Source: a virus
DNA: 35,981 nucleotides
Reading direction: 5' to 3' (one strand)
Virus record (IMG/VR): IMGVR_UViG_3300044678_001935
Coordinates: 1-35,981 of that record
Of the stretch, positions 9,743 to 35,643 are shown in pieces; positions within the stretch are counted from its first letter, which is position 1, and each line of letters starts with the position of its first letter. A program made the position numbers and the translations under genes. The notes under the pieces were generated by a model. The model was not told the DNA's origin. It was given only the letters and a program-made list of their open reading frames with translations, and searched no databases.

Positions 9743-10194
9743 GTCGCTGTGAATATTATGATTGTGGGTGGTGTTACGCCCCTGATAATGTCATGAGTAA
9801 TAACACCAATGGAGCCTGTTATCGGCCACAGGAATGCCCTCAGATGACTAAAGAACATCAAAAACCAGATTGTCCCAAACCACAGATAATCAAAGAGGAC
9901 GTATTACCTGAAAAAACTCCTGATCTTTTTTTGGAAGATTATAGAATCAAAAAGGTTGTTAAGAACGGTGAAACTAAATTCTATCCCCAGAGAATGGGAT
10001 TCTTTAGATGGCGAAATTTTCTGCCTTTGGGCTATTCTTTTTTTCGCACTTATCATGAGGCTAACAAATACCTTTGTTATCATATCATGCAAGAGTCTGA
10101 ACGTTCTGTGGAATACTTTAATCCCGATTTTAGCTTTATTAAAAAAGAACCCAATCCTCAACCAAAAATCCCTGATGGAAGAGCTAAATTCTAA
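9739..10194 (+). CDS. hypothetical protein with Cys-rich N-terminus
   Basis: A 151-residue protein. The first 45 residues contain eight Cys in short spacings (CEYYDCGWCY, then three more pairs), a possible metal-binding or disulphide module. The rest is basic and aromatic. It overlaps the LRV-repeat gene downstream by 20 bases. The family is unknown. Confidence 0.58.
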   Translation: MSRCEYYDCGWCYAPDNVMSNNTNGACYRPQECPQMTKEHQKPDCPKPQIIKEDVLPEKTPDLFLEDYRIKKVVKNGETKFYPQRMGFFRWRNFLPLGYSFFRTYHEANKYLCYHIMQESERSVEYFNPDFSFIKKEPNPQPKIPDGRAKF

Positions 10195-10762
10195 CACCCC
10201 ACTGGAAACCTTAGAACGTCTGGCTAATGATGAGGATTGGTATGTTCGCAGTCGGGTTGCACAAAATCCCAACATACCACCAGAAACCTTAGATCGTCTG
10301 GCTAATGATGATTATATTGATGTTCGTCGTCGGGTTGCAGAAAATCCCAACACACTACCAGAAACCTTAGATCGTCTGGCTAACGATGTTTATCGGTGGG
10401 TTCGTGAGAATGTTGCAGAAAATCCCAACACATCTCCAGAAACATTAAAACGTCTGGCTAATGATAAGAGTTATTATGTTCGTTCTGGGGTTGCAAGAAA
10501 TCCCAACACACCAACAGAAACCTTAGAAAGTCTGGCGTATGATGAGTCTTGGGTTGTTCGTGTGAATGTTGCAAATAATCCCAACACATCAACAGAAACA
10601 TTAGAACGTCTGGCTAATGATGAGGATTATTGGGTTCGTGTGAATGTTGCATGTAATCCTATCATCCCACAATACATCAAAGATTATCTTAAAATTAAGG
10701 AGTTTCTGAAATCATATAATATAAAGCTTAAAACAATTTTAGTAAAAAGTATTAAATATTAA
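10175..10762 (+). CDS. LRV-type tandem-repeat protein, six units
   Basis: 195 residues of 26-residue repeats with consensus NPNTPPETLERLANDEDW, then VR and a short variable stretch; six units are followed by a capping segment (PQYIKDYLKIKEFL) and a basic tail. The repeat matches the leucine-rich-repeat-variant/HEAT-like class, which forms a curved helical scaffold for binding proteins. I place the start at ATG 10175 inside the end of the previous gene, because the repeats begin there. Five relatives lie at 29381, 29934, 32898, 33139 and 34375. The partner is unknown. Confidence 0.8.
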   Translation: MEELNSNTPLETLERLANDEDWYVRSRVAQNPNIPPETLDRLANDDYIDVRRRVAENPNTLPETLDRLANDVYRWVRENVAENPNTSPETLKRLANDKSYYVRSGVARNPNTPTETLESLAYDESWVVRVNVANNPNTSTETLERLANDEDYWVRVNVACNPIIPQYIKDYLKIKEFLKSYNIKLKTILVKSIKY

Positions 10763-29380: not shown

Positions 29381-29941
29381 ATGATTAATTACGATCTAGC
29401 AACAAGTCCCAACACATCGCCAGAATCCTTAGAACGTCTGGCTAACGATAAGGATTATATGGTTCGTCGTGGTGTTGTATTAAATCCCAATATACCACCA
29501 GAAACCTTAGAAAGTTTGGCGAATGATAATAGTTATTATGTTCGTGGCTGGGTTGCAAGAAATCCCAATACACCACCAGAAACCTTAGAGCGTTTGGCTA
29601 ATGATGAGGATTGGCGTGTTCGTCGTAGGGTTGCAAATAATCCAAACACCCCACCAGAAACGTTAGAACGTCTGGCTCATGATGAGGATTGGCGTGTTCG
29701 TTATGGGGTTGTAGGGAATCCTAATACAACAACAGAAATCTTAGAACGTCTGGCTGATGATGAGGATTTAAATGTTCGTTATTATGTTGCAAGAAATCCC
29801 AACACACCACCAGAAACCTTAGCTCGTCTGGCTAATGATGAGGATTGGTATGTTCGTGAATGTGTAGTAAGAAATCCTAATACACCACAATACATTAAAG
29901 ATTATCTTAAAATCAAAAAGTTTCTGAATTGTTATGAGTAA
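29381..29941 (+). CDS. LRV-type tandem-repeat protein, six units
   Basis: A 186-residue protein: MINYDLA, six 26-residue units (consensus NPNTPPETLERLANDEDW, then VR and variable residues) and the cap NPNTPQYIKDYLKIKKFL. The units are most alike at the Asn-Pro turn and first helix, and differ at the residues around VRxxV that would face a partner. ATG 29381 has the AATTATT context. Its last eight bases (ATGAGTAA) hold the start of the next LRV gene. Confidence 0.8.
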   Translation: MINYDLATSPNTSPESLERLANDKDYMVRRGVVLNPNIPPETLESLANDNSYYVRGWVARNPNTPPETLERLANDEDWRVRRRVANNPNTPPETLERLAHDEDWRVRYGVVGNPNTTTEILERLADDEDLNVRYYVARNPNTPPETLARLANDEDWYVRECVVRNPNTPQYIKDYLKIKKFLNCYE

Positions 29942-30197
29942 TTTTGATCTTGCAAAAAATCCCAACACACCACCAGAAACCTTAGAACATCTGGCTAATG
30001 ATAAGGATTGGCTTGTTCGTTGTAGGGTTGCGCGAAATCTTAACACAACAACAGAAACCTTAGAACGTCTGGCTAATGATGAGGATTGGTATGTTCGTTA
30101 TGAGGTTGCAAAAAATCCCAACACCCCACAATACATTCTAACTTATTTTAAAATCAAAAAGTTTTTAACACACTATAACTGTTTTAATCATGAATGA
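29934..30197 (+). CDS. LRV-type tandem-repeat protein, two units
   Basis: An 87-residue version of the upstream gene: MSNFDLAK, two 26-residue units and the cap (PQYILTYFKIKKFL). The start ATGAGTAA overlaps the stop of the previous copy, and the stop overlaps the glutaredoxin ATG. It reads as a product of tandem duplication with loss of repeat units. Confidence 0.78.
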   Translation: MSNFDLAKNPNTPPETLEHLANDKDWLVRCRVARNLNTTTETLERLANDEDWYVRYEVAKNPNTPQYILTYFKIKKFLTHYNCFNHE

Positions 30198-31204: not shown

Positions 31205-31741
31205 ATGACAACAAAAACAAAAGAGGTGAAATTATCACCCAATCCATTCATGTTTGAAGTTCTAGATTTAGTTCTGAAGCAGAGAACAAAAGCAAACAAA
31301 ATTAAGGTATTAAGAGAGTACAGAGACGATAGTATTATTGCCGTTTTTCTCTGGAACTATGTTCCAGCTTTAGTGTCAGCTCTTCCACCCGGAGAAGTCC
31401 CGTATGCGGCTCTTAAAGATCTTGAAGTGGGAAATGATACACTTTCAGATACGGTGAAAAAACAGATTGAATCTTCAACAGCAATGGACTCCATGGGTTC
31501 AAACCAAAGAACCAGCATTCGTAGAGAGTTTCAGATTTTTTATAATTTCTTAAAAGGTGGTAATGATAGTCTCTCTAGTGTTAGAAGAGAAACAATTTTT
31601 ATTAACTTAATAGAAGGTCTTCATCCAAGAGAAGCAGAGATTCTTATGTTAACAAAAGATAAGAGACTAACCGATCGTTATAATCTGCCTTTTGATCTGA
31701 TTCGTGAAGCATATCCTGACGTTACCTGGGACAGATCATGA
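31205..31741 (+). CDS. conserved T4-like cyanophage protein (DUF6433-like)
   Basis: A 178-residue protein that I recall as widely conserved in T4-like cyanophages (family name from memory: DUF6433). Conserved-looking segments are NPFMFEVLDLVLKQRTKANK, SALPPGEVPY, SIRREFQIFYNFLKGGNDSL and LIEGLHPREAEILML. No enzymatic motif is seen. Its stop overlaps the next start. Its presence is one of the better arguments for the phage type. Confidence 0.72.
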   Translation: MTTKTKEVKLSPNPFMFEVLDLVLKQRTKANKIKVLREYRDDSIIAVFLWNYVPALVSALPPGEVPYAALKDLEVGNDTLSDTVKKQIESSTAMDSMGSNQRTSIRREFQIFYNFLKGGNDSLSSVRRETIFINLIEGLHPREAEILMLTKDKRLTDRYNLPFDLIREAYPDVTWDRS

Positions 31742-32234: not shown

Positions 32235-32560
32235 TGGGTAAGCATTATCTACTGAATCTCTATGGTTGCCAATTTCATTCCTTGAATGATTTGAATTTTA
32301 TTACTCAACTATTAAAGGATGCCGCCATCTTATGCGAGGCGACTATTCTTAATGTTGCCACACATCAATTTGATCCATATGGGGTTACGGTAGTTTTAAT
32401 GCTCGCAGAATCACACATAAGCATTCATACATGGCCCGATAAAGGAACCGCCGCATGTGATGTTTATACTTGTTCACAAACAGATCCTAAGATTGGTTGT
32501 GATTTTATTATAGAGAAGTTAAAACCTTCTAATTACGAACTGACTTTCATTCAGAGGTGA
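32234..32560 (+). CDS. speD: S-adenosylmethionine decarboxylase proenzyme, prokaryotic class
   Basis: A 108-residue SpeD. It should self-cleave before Ser60 in ESHISIHTWP to make the pyruvoyl cofactor; His65 and Cys80 stand at the catalytic spacing known for the bacterial enzyme. It supplies decarboxylated SAM for spermidine synthesis. Phage polyamine genes may help DNA packaging or host metabolism; speD is known in several cyanophages. The start overlaps the previous stop. It is the last gene before the next promoter. Confidence 0.92.
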   Translation: MGKHYLLNLYGCQFHSLNDLNFITQLLKDAAILCEATILNVATHQFDPYGVTVVLMLAESHISIHTWPDKGTAACDVYTCSQTDPKIGCDFIIEKLKPSNYELTFIQR

Positions 32561-32573
32561 GTCAGTTCGTAAA

Positions 32574-32616
32574 CTGTCCACACATTACGACAACTCTCGG
32601 CTGTATGTGATATACT
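32574..32616 (+). promoter_or_regulatory. promoter with CTGTCCAC box
   Basis: AAACTGTCCAC ends at 32581, exactly 29 bases before the extended -10 TGTGATATACT (hexamer 32611-32616). The predicted start near 32623 is the first base of a perfect hairpin, AAGCTAA-GAGA-TTAGCTT (32623-32640), which leads into the riboswitch-like RNA. Confidence 0.68.
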
Positions 32617-32644
32617 GGTAGAAAGCTAAGAGATTAGCTTCATC

Positions 32645-32691
32645 CGTTGACTGGAATTCTCCAGTGGAAGTAGTCTTATGACGAAGCAACG
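32645..32691 (+). ncRNA. glutamine riboswitch-like RNA (glnA / Downstream-peptide type)
   Basis: A three-stem junction: CGTTG (32645-32649) with CAACG (32687-32691), then CTGGA-ATTC-TCCAG (32651-32664), then the invariant-looking GGAAGTAG (32666-32673), a short stem TC-TTAT-GA, and CGAAG (32682-32686). GGAAGUAG, CGAAG and AACGC are the marks of the glutamine aptamers of cyanobacteria and marine phages. The closing stem differs from the common CGUUC/GAACG by a compensated pair. A short ORF with a good ribosome site follows, as in the Downstream-peptide class. Confidence 0.8.
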
Positions 32692-32721
32692 CGAAATTCC
32701 ACTTTCAATTAGGAGAAAACC

Positions 32722-32823
32722 ATGAAACCAACTTTCGTTCATATTATCAAAAATAAAATTCGTAAGGAAGCTCTTATTAAAAATAGTCAATACGAAATGG
32801 CCAAGAAATCACAAATTTGTTGA
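32722..32823 (+). CDS. riboswitch-controlled short peptide, 33 residues
   Basis: A basic peptide beginning MKPTFVHIIKNKIRKEALIK, with AGGAG at 32711-32715. It lies 30 bases after the glutamine riboswitch-like RNA, the place of the 'downstream peptide' genes. Those peptides are thought to affect nitrogen metabolism in cyanobacteria; a function here is inference. The frame stops at 32821-32823, but the +1 frame continues in protein-like text to 32905, so the gene may have been longer before a frameshift. Confidence 0.6.
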   Translation: MKPTFVHIIKNKIRKEALIKNSQYEMAKKSQIC

Positions 32824-32905
32824 TTATATTAGTGGTTTATTTTTTGATTTGCATGAGAATTTCTCAATCAGCCCTAAATTAAAGTTTTTGAATCGTTATG
32901 AGTAA
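32813..32905 (+). pseudogene. gene remnant ending in an LRV cap
   Basis: An open stretch without its own start reads KFVDYISGLFFDLHE and ends KFLNRYE-stop. The last seven residues and the junction ATGAGTAA match the end of the LRV genes at 29381 and 32898. It is best explained as the tail of a deleted LRV copy, or of the 33-residue ORF after a one-base shift, joined to an LRV end. Confidence 0.45.
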
Positions 32906-33152
32906 TTATGATCTAGCAGAAAATCACAACACACCACCAGAAACCTTAGAACGGCTGGCTAATGGTGGTAATGCTAATCTTCGTTGGCTTGTTGCATTTA
33001 ATCCCAACACACCACCAGAAGCCTTAGAACGTCTGGCGAATGATGAGGATTCAGAAATTCGTTATGAGGTTGCAAATAATATTAACACACCACAATACAT
33101 CAAAGATTATCTAAAAATCAAGGAGTTTCTGAATCGTTATGAGCAATTATGA
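32898..33152 (+). CDS. LRV-type tandem-repeat protein, two units
   Basis: An 84-residue protein: MSNYDLAE, two 26-residue units (the first diverged: LANGGNANLRW) and the cap PQYIKDYLKIKEFLNRYE. At its end the usual ATGAGTAA junction has become ATGAGCAA, which removes the stop and adds two residues before TGA. It lies immediately upstream of another copy. Confidence 0.76.
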   Translation: MSNYDLAENHNTPPETLERLANGGNANLRWLVAFNPNTPPEALERLANDEDSEIRYEVANNINTPQYIKDYLKIKEFLNRYEQL

Positions 33153-33465
33153 TCTAGCAAGAAATCCCAACACACCACCAGAAACATTAGCGCGGCTAGC
33201 TACTGATAAGGATTATAACGTTCGTCGTGAGGTTGCAAGAAATCCCAACACACCAATAGAAATCTTAGAACGTCTGGCTAATGATGAGCATCTGCATGTT
33301 CGTTGTTGGGTTGCATTGAATCCCAACACATCGACAGAAATCTTAGAACGTCTTGCTAATGATAACGATTTTTGGGTTCGTAGCAGTGTTGAATTAAATC
33401 CCAACACACCACAATACATTAAAACTTATTTCAAAATTAAAAGAATATTACGTTGTTATGAATAA
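33139..33465 (+). CDS. LRV-type tandem-repeat protein, three units
   Basis: A 108-residue protein: MSNYDLAR, three 26-residue units and the cap PQYIKTYFKIKRILRCYE. It overlaps the previous copy by 14 bases and the next gene by eight. The variable residues after LAND differ between all units. An antisense open frame here is an artefact of the repeat. Confidence 0.78.
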   Translation: MSNYDLARNPNTPPETLARLATDKDYNVRREVARNPNTPIEILERLANDEHLHVRCWVALNPNTSTEILERLANDNDFWVRSSVELNPNTPQYIKTYFKIKRILRCYE

Positions 33466-33703: not shown

Positions 33704-34387
33704 ATGAGACCCGATGTAAAACTTATAGCCATAACTCAGGGGGCAGGAGATCTTGTCAATAAAAATGCACAAGAGGTTATTTCTTATGTCGCTAGAGTTA
33801 GTAATCCAAATAATCAGCTAAATTTTGATACAGCTAGCGGACTCATTAGATACTGTATTAAAAATAAACATGTAAGCATTTTTGAACATTCTTATATGAC
33901 GCTGGAGATCAATACAACCAGAGCGATTGCGGCTCAAATTTTGCGCCATAGATCCTTTTGTTATCAAGAATGGTCCCAAAGATATTCTGATGTAAATTCT
34001 TTAACAGAAACGATAGTGGTTCCAGAACTTCGTAGGCAAGACACTAAGAACCGACAAAATTCTATTGACGATCTTGATAAGGAAGTTAAGCAGTCTTTTG
34101 AAGATGAAATTAAAGATTATTTCAAACAAGGACAAGAACTTTATAATTCGCTTCTTGATAATGAAGTCGCAAAGGAATCAGCACGTTTTATTTTGCCGTT
34201 AGCAACACCAACAAGAATTTATATGACGGGCAATGTTCGTTCTTGGATGACATATATCGCTCTTAGAGAGAAAAATGGTACACAGAAAGAGCACCAAGAC
34301 ATTGCAAAAGAATGTAAGCTCATCTTTAAAGAGCAGTTTCCAGATTGTTATGAGGCTTTAGGTGGGGGCGAAGAATGGACTATCTAG
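33704..34387 (+). CDS. thyX: flavin-dependent thymidylate synthase
   Basis: A 227-residue ThyX, which makes dTMP from dUMP using FAD, NADPH and methylene-tetrahydrofolate. The signature RHRx7S is present as RHR (81-83) plus Ser91 in RHRSFCYQEWSQRYSD. RFILPLATPTRIYMTGNVRSW near 170-190 completes the dUMP/FAD site. The length is typical. A good ribosome site (AGGAG) precedes ATG 33704. ThyX is frequent in cyanophages and supports phage DNA synthesis. It overlaps the next gene by 13 bases. Confidence 0.95.
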   Translation: MRPDVKLIAITQGAGDLVNKNAQEVISYVARVSNPNNQLNFDTASGLIRYCIKNKHVSIFEHSYMTLEINTTRAIAAQILRHRSFCYQEWSQRYSDVNSLTETIVVPELRRQDTKNRQNSIDDLDKEVKQSFEDEIKDYFKQGQELYNSLLDNEVAKESARFILPLATPTRIYMTGNVRSWMTYIALREKNGTQKEHQDIAKECKLIFKEQFPDCYEALGGGEEWTI

Positions 34388-35643
34388 ATTACTTACAACA
34401 ATACCGCGAAAAATATCATTTAGATGATATCTTCAATCACAATAATAATGCTGATGTAGAACAAGTAGAGAAGTATATTGGGGAATTATGCGGTGTTTCT
34501 TATGTTTTACTTGAGTTGTTTTGTGGCGCGCGTTCGGAAGAACATTACAAAGGTGGACGGACGTTCCCAAGCAATATTCATAGATTTGTTATGAAAAATA
34601 GTGTATTAGAAAATACTGGTAAAGAACCGAAAAACATTGATTATCTTACCAGAATGCTGGTGACAACTCTAGGTAATCCCGATTCTGAGATTTTAGATTC
34701 TATAGCAAGAGAAAATAATCCAGTAATAAACAAAATTATTTCACGCCACCAAAACACATCAAGCGACACTTTGATGTATCTTGCGTCTTCCAACATTTAT
34801 GCTTCAAGTATTATTTGTCATAGTAATATAACCTCTGATGTTTTATTGGAGATAACAAAAGTCTTATTATCTGATCTAAGTAAAAAAATTTTTTGGGTTC
34901 AATATCCAGAATGTGATGATTGGGACTTTGTTCAGAAACTTCCTTATGTAAGTGGAAAGCCGAGTGGAAGGATATTAGATTTTTTGGAATATATTGTGGG
35001 CTCTTCTAATTTTAATGAGGATACGATGAAGTTGTTTTTATCGGTAGACGATGAAACAATGAAAACGTTAGTGTGGGATCAAATCTTTTATAGTATGGGT
35101 AGAAATCCTTATATTTCACCTCAAATAATGGATATATTGTGTGGGGATCAATTCGTTACTTTAAAGTATAATGGCGTTCTTGAAAATCCTAATGCGCCTA
35201 AACATATTTTAGAAAAGTATTCAACACATAACAAAATGTTTTATCGTGAGCGTGTTGCATATAATACTAACACACTAACAAAAACATTAGAACGTCTGGC
35301 TAACGATAATCATCCTGATGTTCGTTGTGGAGTTGCATGTAATCTCAACACATCACCAGAAACATTAGAACTTCTGGCGAATGATGATAATCGTTGGGTT
35401 CGTCTTAGGGTTGCAAAAAATCCAAACACACCCACAGAAATACTAGATCGTTTAGCTAATGATAAATCTTGGGGAACTTTGGAAGAGGTTGCTCATAACA
35501 GAAATGCTTCAGTAAAAACGTTACAAAATATTATTAATAACTTAGAAACTTTTGAAAGAAAAGGTGATTCTAGTGATTGGCTTATTGGACATCTTAAAGA
35601 TTTTTGTACTCAACGATCTTTATTTTTAACGTCTAACTCGTAA
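34375..35643 (+). CDS. large LRV-domain protein
   Basis: A 422-residue protein. The first 270 residues are helical and contain degenerate repeats (NPDSEILDSIARENNPVI; NPYISPQIMDILCGD). Residues about 300-380 hold three clear LRV units (LERLANDNHPDVRCGVAC and two more), followed by a non-repeat end. It is therefore a longer, older relative of the short LRV genes, without their cap. It starts inside the thyX end. The function is unknown; a protein-binding scaffold is likely from the repeat class. Confidence 0.72.
   Translation: MDYLDYLQQYREKYHLDDIFNHNNNADVEQVEKYIGELCGVSYVLLELFCGARSEEHYKGGRTFPSNIHRFVMKNSVLENTGKEPKNIDYLTRMLVTTLGNPDSEILDSIARENNPVINKIISRHQNTSSDTLMYLASSNIYASSIICHSNITSDVLLEITKVLLSDLSKKIFWVQYPECDDWDFVQKLPYVSGKPSGRILDFLEYIVGSSNFNEDTMKLFLSVDDETMKTLVWDQIFYSMGRNPYISPQIMDILCGDQFVTLKYNGVLENPNAPKHILEKYSTHNKMFYRERVAYNTNTLTKTLERLANDNHPDVRCGVACNLNTSPETLELLANDDNRWVRLRVAKNPNTPTEILDRLANDKSWGTLEEVAHNRNASVKTLQNIINNLETFERKGDSSDWLIGHLKDFCTQRSLFLTSNS

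Follow-up and report, generated by a model that had tools for sequence, protein, structure and literature searches.

A predicted type-1 glutamine riboswitch upstream of a conserved 33-codon peptide gene in a T4-like cyanophage

The riboswitch, the peptide gene and the virus

The window, that is, the whole stretch of 35,981 nucleotides analyzed here, belongs to a viral record (IMG/VR IMGVR_UViG_3300044678_001935, G000) of 99,981 bases, which may be a fragment. Near the 3' end of the window, a leader with a putative glutamine riboswitch aptamer is followed by a short peptide gene, and the following features were identified.

32587..32616, plus strand: weak sigma-70-like promoter ACGACA-18-TATACT, TG before the second hexamer, 9/12 matches, just 5' of the leader
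32603..32615, plus strand: GTAN7TAC, one base short of the NtcA box GTAN8TAC; relatives have the exact box at a fixed distance
32623..32640, plus strand: 7-bp hairpin AAGCTAA-GAGA-TTAGCTT at the leader 5' end, from folding
32643..32695, plus strand: putative type-1 (glnA) glutamine riboswitch aptamer, RF01739
32645-32649/32687-32691 (P1), 32651-32655/32660-32664 (P2), 32673-32675/32680-32682 (P3), plus strand: aptamer stems
32657..32669, plus strand: possible OFF-state strand TTCTCC-AGTGGAA, pairing with the Shine-Dalgarno sequence (32712-32717) and with 32697-32703 in minimum free energy folds
32697..32703, plus strand: linker TTCCACT, which pairs with 32663-32669 in the alternative fold
32712..32717, plus strand: Shine-Dalgarno sequence GGAGAA, with ATG 4 nt further 3'
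32722..32823, plus strand: 33-codon peptide gene, MKPTFVHIIKNKIRKEALIKNSQYEMAKKSQIC, net charge about +6, predicted single helix at residues 3-32; homologue QPX47984.1 in phage S-SRM01

A cmscan search of the whole window returned a single Rfam match at or above the gathering threshold, RF01739 at 32643-32695 on the plus strand, with 43.8 bits (threshold 35 bits), model positions 1-53 of 53 and an E value of 1.6e-6. The original prediction of a phage-borne glutamine riboswitch, with its motifs in the right order between three stems, was thus confirmed: CGTTG, the P2 hairpin, GGAAGTAG, P3, CGAAG and CAACG follow one another at 32645-32691. The window forms standard pairs at each of the 13 pairs of the model, P1 is paired, the conserved GGAAGUAG and CGAAG stand in the three-way junction, and no conserved core position has been lost. 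The predicted compensation of the closing pair of P1 is also real. This pair is G-C in the window versus C-G in the consensus, and among 116 distinct viral aptamers it is C-G in 99, G-C in 11, T-A in 3, T-G in 1 and unpaired in 2; since 114 of the 116 pair there, the G-C represents a true compensatory change. On this sequence evidence we classify the element as a type-1 (glnA, RF01739) glutamine riboswitch aptamer, with glutamine binding taken from the literature on the class. The Downstream-peptide (type-2, RF01704) class that had been proposed instead shares the glutamine ligand and a short ORF directly 3' of the aptamer, but it has a pseudoknot fold and is an extremely improbable assignment ruled out by the covariance models, since the type-1 three-way junction fits the full RF01739 model and 32540-32830, searched alone with permissive filters, matched neither RF01704 nor any other Rfam family besides RF01739 at E<=10.

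The predicted 33-codon ORF with a good ribosome site was found at 32722-32823, and it starts 29 nt 3' of the last P1 segment of the aptamer (AACGC). The window copy agrees with the known glnA RNA motif in its full-length match, its core, its three stems and this distance to the start codon, but differs in being viral and in preceding a peptide without known family. Relatives were sought in viral contigs by a pattern of the aptamer and MAKK codons. This yielded 13 further contigs in which a glutamine aptamer is followed by a peptide of always 33 aa. Among them, L107 stems from the same virus, at 99.97% identity, and one ORF recurs unchanged in three contigs; the three remaining matches of the pattern were without an aptamer. 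Among nine distinct ORFs, the length is constant and the pooled pN/pS is 0.25, with values mostly around 0.05-0.2 inside the close group; comparing the window with this group gives a weaker signal, 0.48-0.66. These figures indicate a real gene under purifying selection. AlphaFold2 predicted a single helix over residues 3-32 of the window peptide, with a mean pLDDT of 86. The peptide (P0001) has no Pfam match, hence none to DUF4278 (PF14105), tblastn of it in INPHARED found nothing, and blastn of the aptamer-peptide unit gave chance matches only. A search of 300 picocyanobacterial genomes for an origin of the peptide also stayed at chance level (best E value 0.046 per genome), and a host origin in picocyanobacteria was rejected on this basis.

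The virus shares the gene order speD..thyX..PhoH..exonuclease..SSB with T4-like cyanophages, and thyX, PhoH, exonuclease and SSB agree with Synechococcus phage DSL-LC03. Its ThyX is closest to that of DSL-LC03 (66.8%), followed by marine T4-like cyanophages; megablast of the last 14 kb of the window against phage records gave no match. The psbA/psbD genes (PF00124), common in T4-like cyanophages (Kyanoviridae) though not universal, are absent from the 99,981-base and possibly fragmentary record. Gene order and ThyX place the virus among the Kyanoviridae, and a cyanobacterial host is well supported by synteny, ThyX and the homologue in S-SRM01. The original prediction had named such a host from the riboswitch; the host stands, but the riboswitch alone is not host-diagnostic, because SAR11 phages carry the same aptamer. 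RF01739 scores 50.0 bits in the SAR11 phage Mosig, where a short ORF of another peptide family (Mosig_00116) follows, and it has been reported, with a tmRNA, in the OM43 phage Melnitz (PMC9004378). The aptamer itself is of a known type, and its carriage by phages was previously reported. A riboswitch-associated peptide family other than that of the window (MNYRDFELARKK...DDPRLQKI) was seen in SAR11 phages (L012, L068, L071 and others; Mosig 92025-92180; HTVC023P 31328-31480), which shows that cyanophages are not the only viruses with glutamine-riboswitch peptides.

Several other features of the record were observed. At 125-1156 and 2079-2561, a reverse transcriptase (PF00078) lies close to a protein that weakly matches the Lcl_C/DUF1566 type, an arrangement that looks like a diversity-generating retroelement. 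Numerous ORFs consisting of LRV-type repeats (NPNTPPETLERLANDEDWYVR, PF01816) lie at 9956-10762, 29381-30197, 32898-33465 and 34375-35643, and also in L276-L278, an expansion that is unusual in a T4-like phage. The nicotinamide phosphoribosyltransferase gene (L277:16992-19340; G000 92973-95321), with a NUDIX/cytidylyltransferase gene upstream, is interrupted by some 300 residues with matches in several unrelated phage families, probably an intein, and a full-length cysteinyl-tRNA synthetase-like gene (PF01406) is found at L278:361-1710 (G000 96342-97691).

The peptide family and its relation to inactivating factors

The isolate S-SRM01 (host Synechococcus sp. KCZYC6, Serangoon Reservoir) carries an annotated 33-aa homologue, QPX47984.1, which was found with a relative's peptide as the query. 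It is 54.5% identical to the close relative's peptide, and the match, with an E value of 5 alone, has the corresponding location next to thyX-phoH. A 45-52-aa gene that is DUF4278-like by Pfam (L004 protein 19.9 bits, below the cut-off of 25.3) precedes the peptide gene in S-SRM01, L004, L019, L042 and L117, and its end is overlapped by the peptide gene (ATGA); the window itself is without a DUF4278 gene. A profile search of IMG/VR with this gene gave at least 490 confirmed related stretches, of which 80 were examined. Our script recognized the DUF4278 gene in 58 loci, and in 56 of these 58 scored loci it is followed, at a -4 overlap, by a basic peptide of 23-34 aa. We then compared four peptide types, D (that of the window), H, K and NW, by profile, and they match one another, with 0/40 column-shuffled nulls reaching the score for every pair. 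By this comparison, the window peptide belongs to a family of basic, helical peptides 27-34 residues long. Neither Pfam nor NCBIfam gave a match for this family, nor did PDB by sequence, and the NW type matches one PHROG of unknown function. Single-linkage clustering of riboswitch-associated phage peptides merged unrelated families and was discarded for claims; D and H fell together in it, a grouping that the profiles confirmed.

The loci of S-SRM01 (QPX47983.1/QPX47984.1), DSL-LC02 and DSL-LC03 likewise belong to T4-like freshwater cyanophages, with the S-SRM01 peptide between glutaredoxin and thyX-phoH. They differ from the window in having an elongated, nested aptamer with an ORF inside, which does not reach the RF01739 cut-off (28.9 bits in S-SRM01, 34.2 in DSL-LC03). 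Such a nested, putative type-1 aptamer precedes the DUF4278-peptide cassette or, in DSL-LC03, the inner ORF described below in 44 distinct sequences, including these three isolates (L332-L405, e.g. L340 and L339; L325 for S-SRM01, L409 for DSL-LC02 and L269 for DSL-LC03). Its elements are arranged as CGTTC-P2-GGAAGTA, P3, a second GAACG/CGTTC pair, a hairpin or ORF, and GAAG-GAACG. P3 is a helix of 6-8 bp with conserved A.C mismatches and compensatory changes at pair 1 (AT/GC/GT/CG) and pair 8 (TA/GC/TG), and its loop holds the second GAACG/CGTTC pair together with the hairpin or a 50-55-codon ORF. This ORF (MEALILTCLQAQL...) occurs in L338, L374, L378, L385, L397, L399, L400, L325, L409 and L269, the DSL-LC03 nested aptamer preceding the same inner ORF, and in most of these aptamers its TGA stop codon overlaps the conserved core GAAG. 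The same palindrome (GCTATTTGCGAATAGC) often makes up P2 or the inner stem (L010, L257, L260, L264, L268, L009 and a large number of nested forms), which looks like the insertion of a small repeat into aptamer stems.

The relatives' cassette recalls cyanobacterial gifB, which is under NtcA control and a type-1 glutamine riboswitch and whose product IF17 consists of an N-terminal DUF4278 fused to a part that inactivates glutamine synthetase (GS) (PMC6316151). The two share the aptamer class and, in the relatives, NtcA boxes and a DUF4278 gene before a small basic peptide; they differ in that the relatives have two separate coupled genes and the window has the peptide alone. One might thus derive the peptide from the C-terminal, IF7-like portion of IF17 and see the phage operon as a split gifB (DUF4278 plus inhibitor) of which the window keeps only the inhibitor, to bind and inactivate host GS. 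By eye, RKEALIKNSQYEM of the window peptide aligns beside MRHHxLIKNRQQSM of IF, and the peptide alone reached 6.8 bits with a profile built from 24 cyanobacterial IF cores, a value matched by 10 of 5000 shuffles. At the family level, however, column-shuffled nulls reached the score against IF in 24/60 (D), 41/60 (H), 45/60 (K), 55/60 (NW) and 47/60 (ALL) cases, and in 35/60 for an earlier D set, while the positive control, the IF-like L172/L182 outside the profile, passed with a probability of 96. Furthermore, IF7 requires three conserved arginines for GS binding (PMC6316151), a pattern absent from the phage family, as the window peptide has one Arg and most D-type relatives have none. IF7/IF17 homology was therefore rejected and the peptide was not filed under these factors, and common descent with IF17 appears unlikely. 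Our leading hypothesis, by analogy, is that the peptide works like an inactivating factor, being small, basic, predicted to be helical, apparently riboswitch-controlled and, in relatives, adjoining DUF4278.

Nitrogen control sites and the expression platform

GTAN8TAC is the NtcA consensus used for cyanophages (PMC3037559). It occurs 41-47 nt 5' of the aptamer in L002, L010, L257, L258, L260, L264 and L268, and 24-25 nt 5' in the H, K and NW types and L261; of 46 distinct nested-form loci, 41 have it 44-46 nt 5' of the aptamer. The background rate is 0.036 per 100 nt. An exact box is absent from the window, and the function of its GTAN7TAC (32603-32615) is doubtful. With this near-box and no DUF4278 gene, the nitrogen logic of the window is read across from the relatives. 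That the phage senses the host nitrogen state, as first proposed, may fairly be inferred by analogy, with glutamine binding by the window RNA being a prediction. Neither this peptide family nor its frequent association with nitrogen control sites of the host type seems to have been described, and our literature search found no paper naming both DUF4278 and phage.

The sigma-70-like promoter at 32587-32616 is weak, because the region holds two such sites versus 1.6 expected by chance, and the 7-bp hairpin at 32623-32640 is absent from the upstream sequences of relatives. Among viral aptamer loci at large, a T4-late-type NTAAATA box precedes the aptamer in 78 of 124 (e.g. L012, L051, L071; 3.3 loci expected), mostly at 5-8 nt (mode 6), and the aptamer thus starts at the transcription start or close to it. 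Viral aptamers preceded by this box are followed by many different families of short peptides.

In free folds of the window leader, the unpaired probability of the Shine-Dalgarno sequence was 0.02-0.09 in 8 of 9 fragments and 0.26 in the remaining one; the sequence is hidden by pairing of GGAGAA with TTCTCC of P2 and of TTCCACT with AGTGGAA. When the aptamer was imposed, the probability was 0.45-0.51, at a cost of about 3-4 kcal/mol. These modelled folds would fit an ON switch, and type-1 and type-2 glutamine riboswitches are described as activating (PMC6316151, PMC6698751). However, 27% of linker shuffles hid the Shine-Dalgarno sequence equally well, and the possible OFF-state strand at 32657-32669 was not beyond chance in this shuffle. 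Imposing the aptamer on 113 viral aptamers did not raise accessibility (0.374 vs 0.392), and a general ON switch by Shine-Dalgarno accessibility was rejected under this simple folding model. Therefore, the ON direction rests mainly on the literature, and the modelled expression platform is not established. The lack of a general ON effect over the 113 aptamers, and the part that P2 of the window takes in the alternative pairing, would also suit a relic or an OFF switch. We regard this reading as improbable, because every conserved core position is kept, the compensatory change in P1 is common to several lineages, and described members of the class activate.

A further question is which gene the riboswitch would control. 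The short ORF might be a leader or upstream ORF, with the LRV-repeat ORFs or thyX as the real regulated genes, as the downstream ORFs are on the same strand, the next about 75 nt away and thyX about 1 kb downstream. Yet in related viral contigs the unit keeps its location (speD - aptamer/peptide - thyX - phoH), whereas the small ORFs that separate the peptide from thyX vary among loci, being LRV-repeat ORFs in the window. Because the peptide, conserved in length and sequence, stays where these ORFs change, it is the peptide and not a downstream gene that forms the constant partner of the riboswitch. In S-SRM01-type loci, moreover, the peptide itself is the coupled second gene, and a mere leader ORF is thus quite improbable.

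Proposed role in host nitrogen assimilation

Taking the riboswitch-controlled peptide as the preferred reading, we consider it fairly probable that this freshwater T4-like cyanophage uses a type-1 glutamine riboswitch to switch on a 33-residue effector at high glutamine, and thereby adjusts host nitrogen assimilation. Glutamine binding and the ON direction are carried over from the literature on the class, and we infer the alternative fold of the window RNA as well as the role and target of the peptide. In a nitrogen-replete host with high glutamine, the ligand would close the three-way junction, the alternative fold between P2 and the Shine-Dalgarno sequence would be lost, and the peptide would be translated. 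The basic, predicted helical peptide could then bind a host nitrogen-assimilation protein, with GS as the first candidate and PII-type regulators as the second, and the pathway would be lowered or retuned. Such an action would resemble cyanobacterial gifB/IF17 feedback with no detectable IF7/IF17 homology, and the cassette may be seen, by analogy, as a variant of this feedback.

A bolder and more speculative proposal is that freshwater cyanophages might have their own version of the brake that gifB puts on nitrogen use. Its parts would be an NtcA box, a glutamine riboswitch, a protein with DUF4278 and an unrelated helical peptide of 27-34 residues, by which host GS or a PII-family regulator is shut down or retuned. 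The window would then be the minimal form, and the aptamer of its relatives a nested double form able to hold a whole gene in the P3 loop.

Nitrogen is often limiting for cyanobacteria and for phage production. If our reading is true, a phage gene read out by host glutamine, and in relatives equipped with the host's NtcA site, would offer a concrete way of testing how nitrogen assimilation is steered by cyanophages. The small size of the peptides allows their synthesis, and the isolate S-SRM01, with a cultured host, carries a homologue. To our knowledge, picocyanobacteria appear to be without IF7/IF17, and their own glutamine riboswitches control DUF4278. Because the partner protein of the phage peptides, DUF4278, is the target of these riboswitches, the finding may also bear on how GS is regulated in picocyanobacteria.
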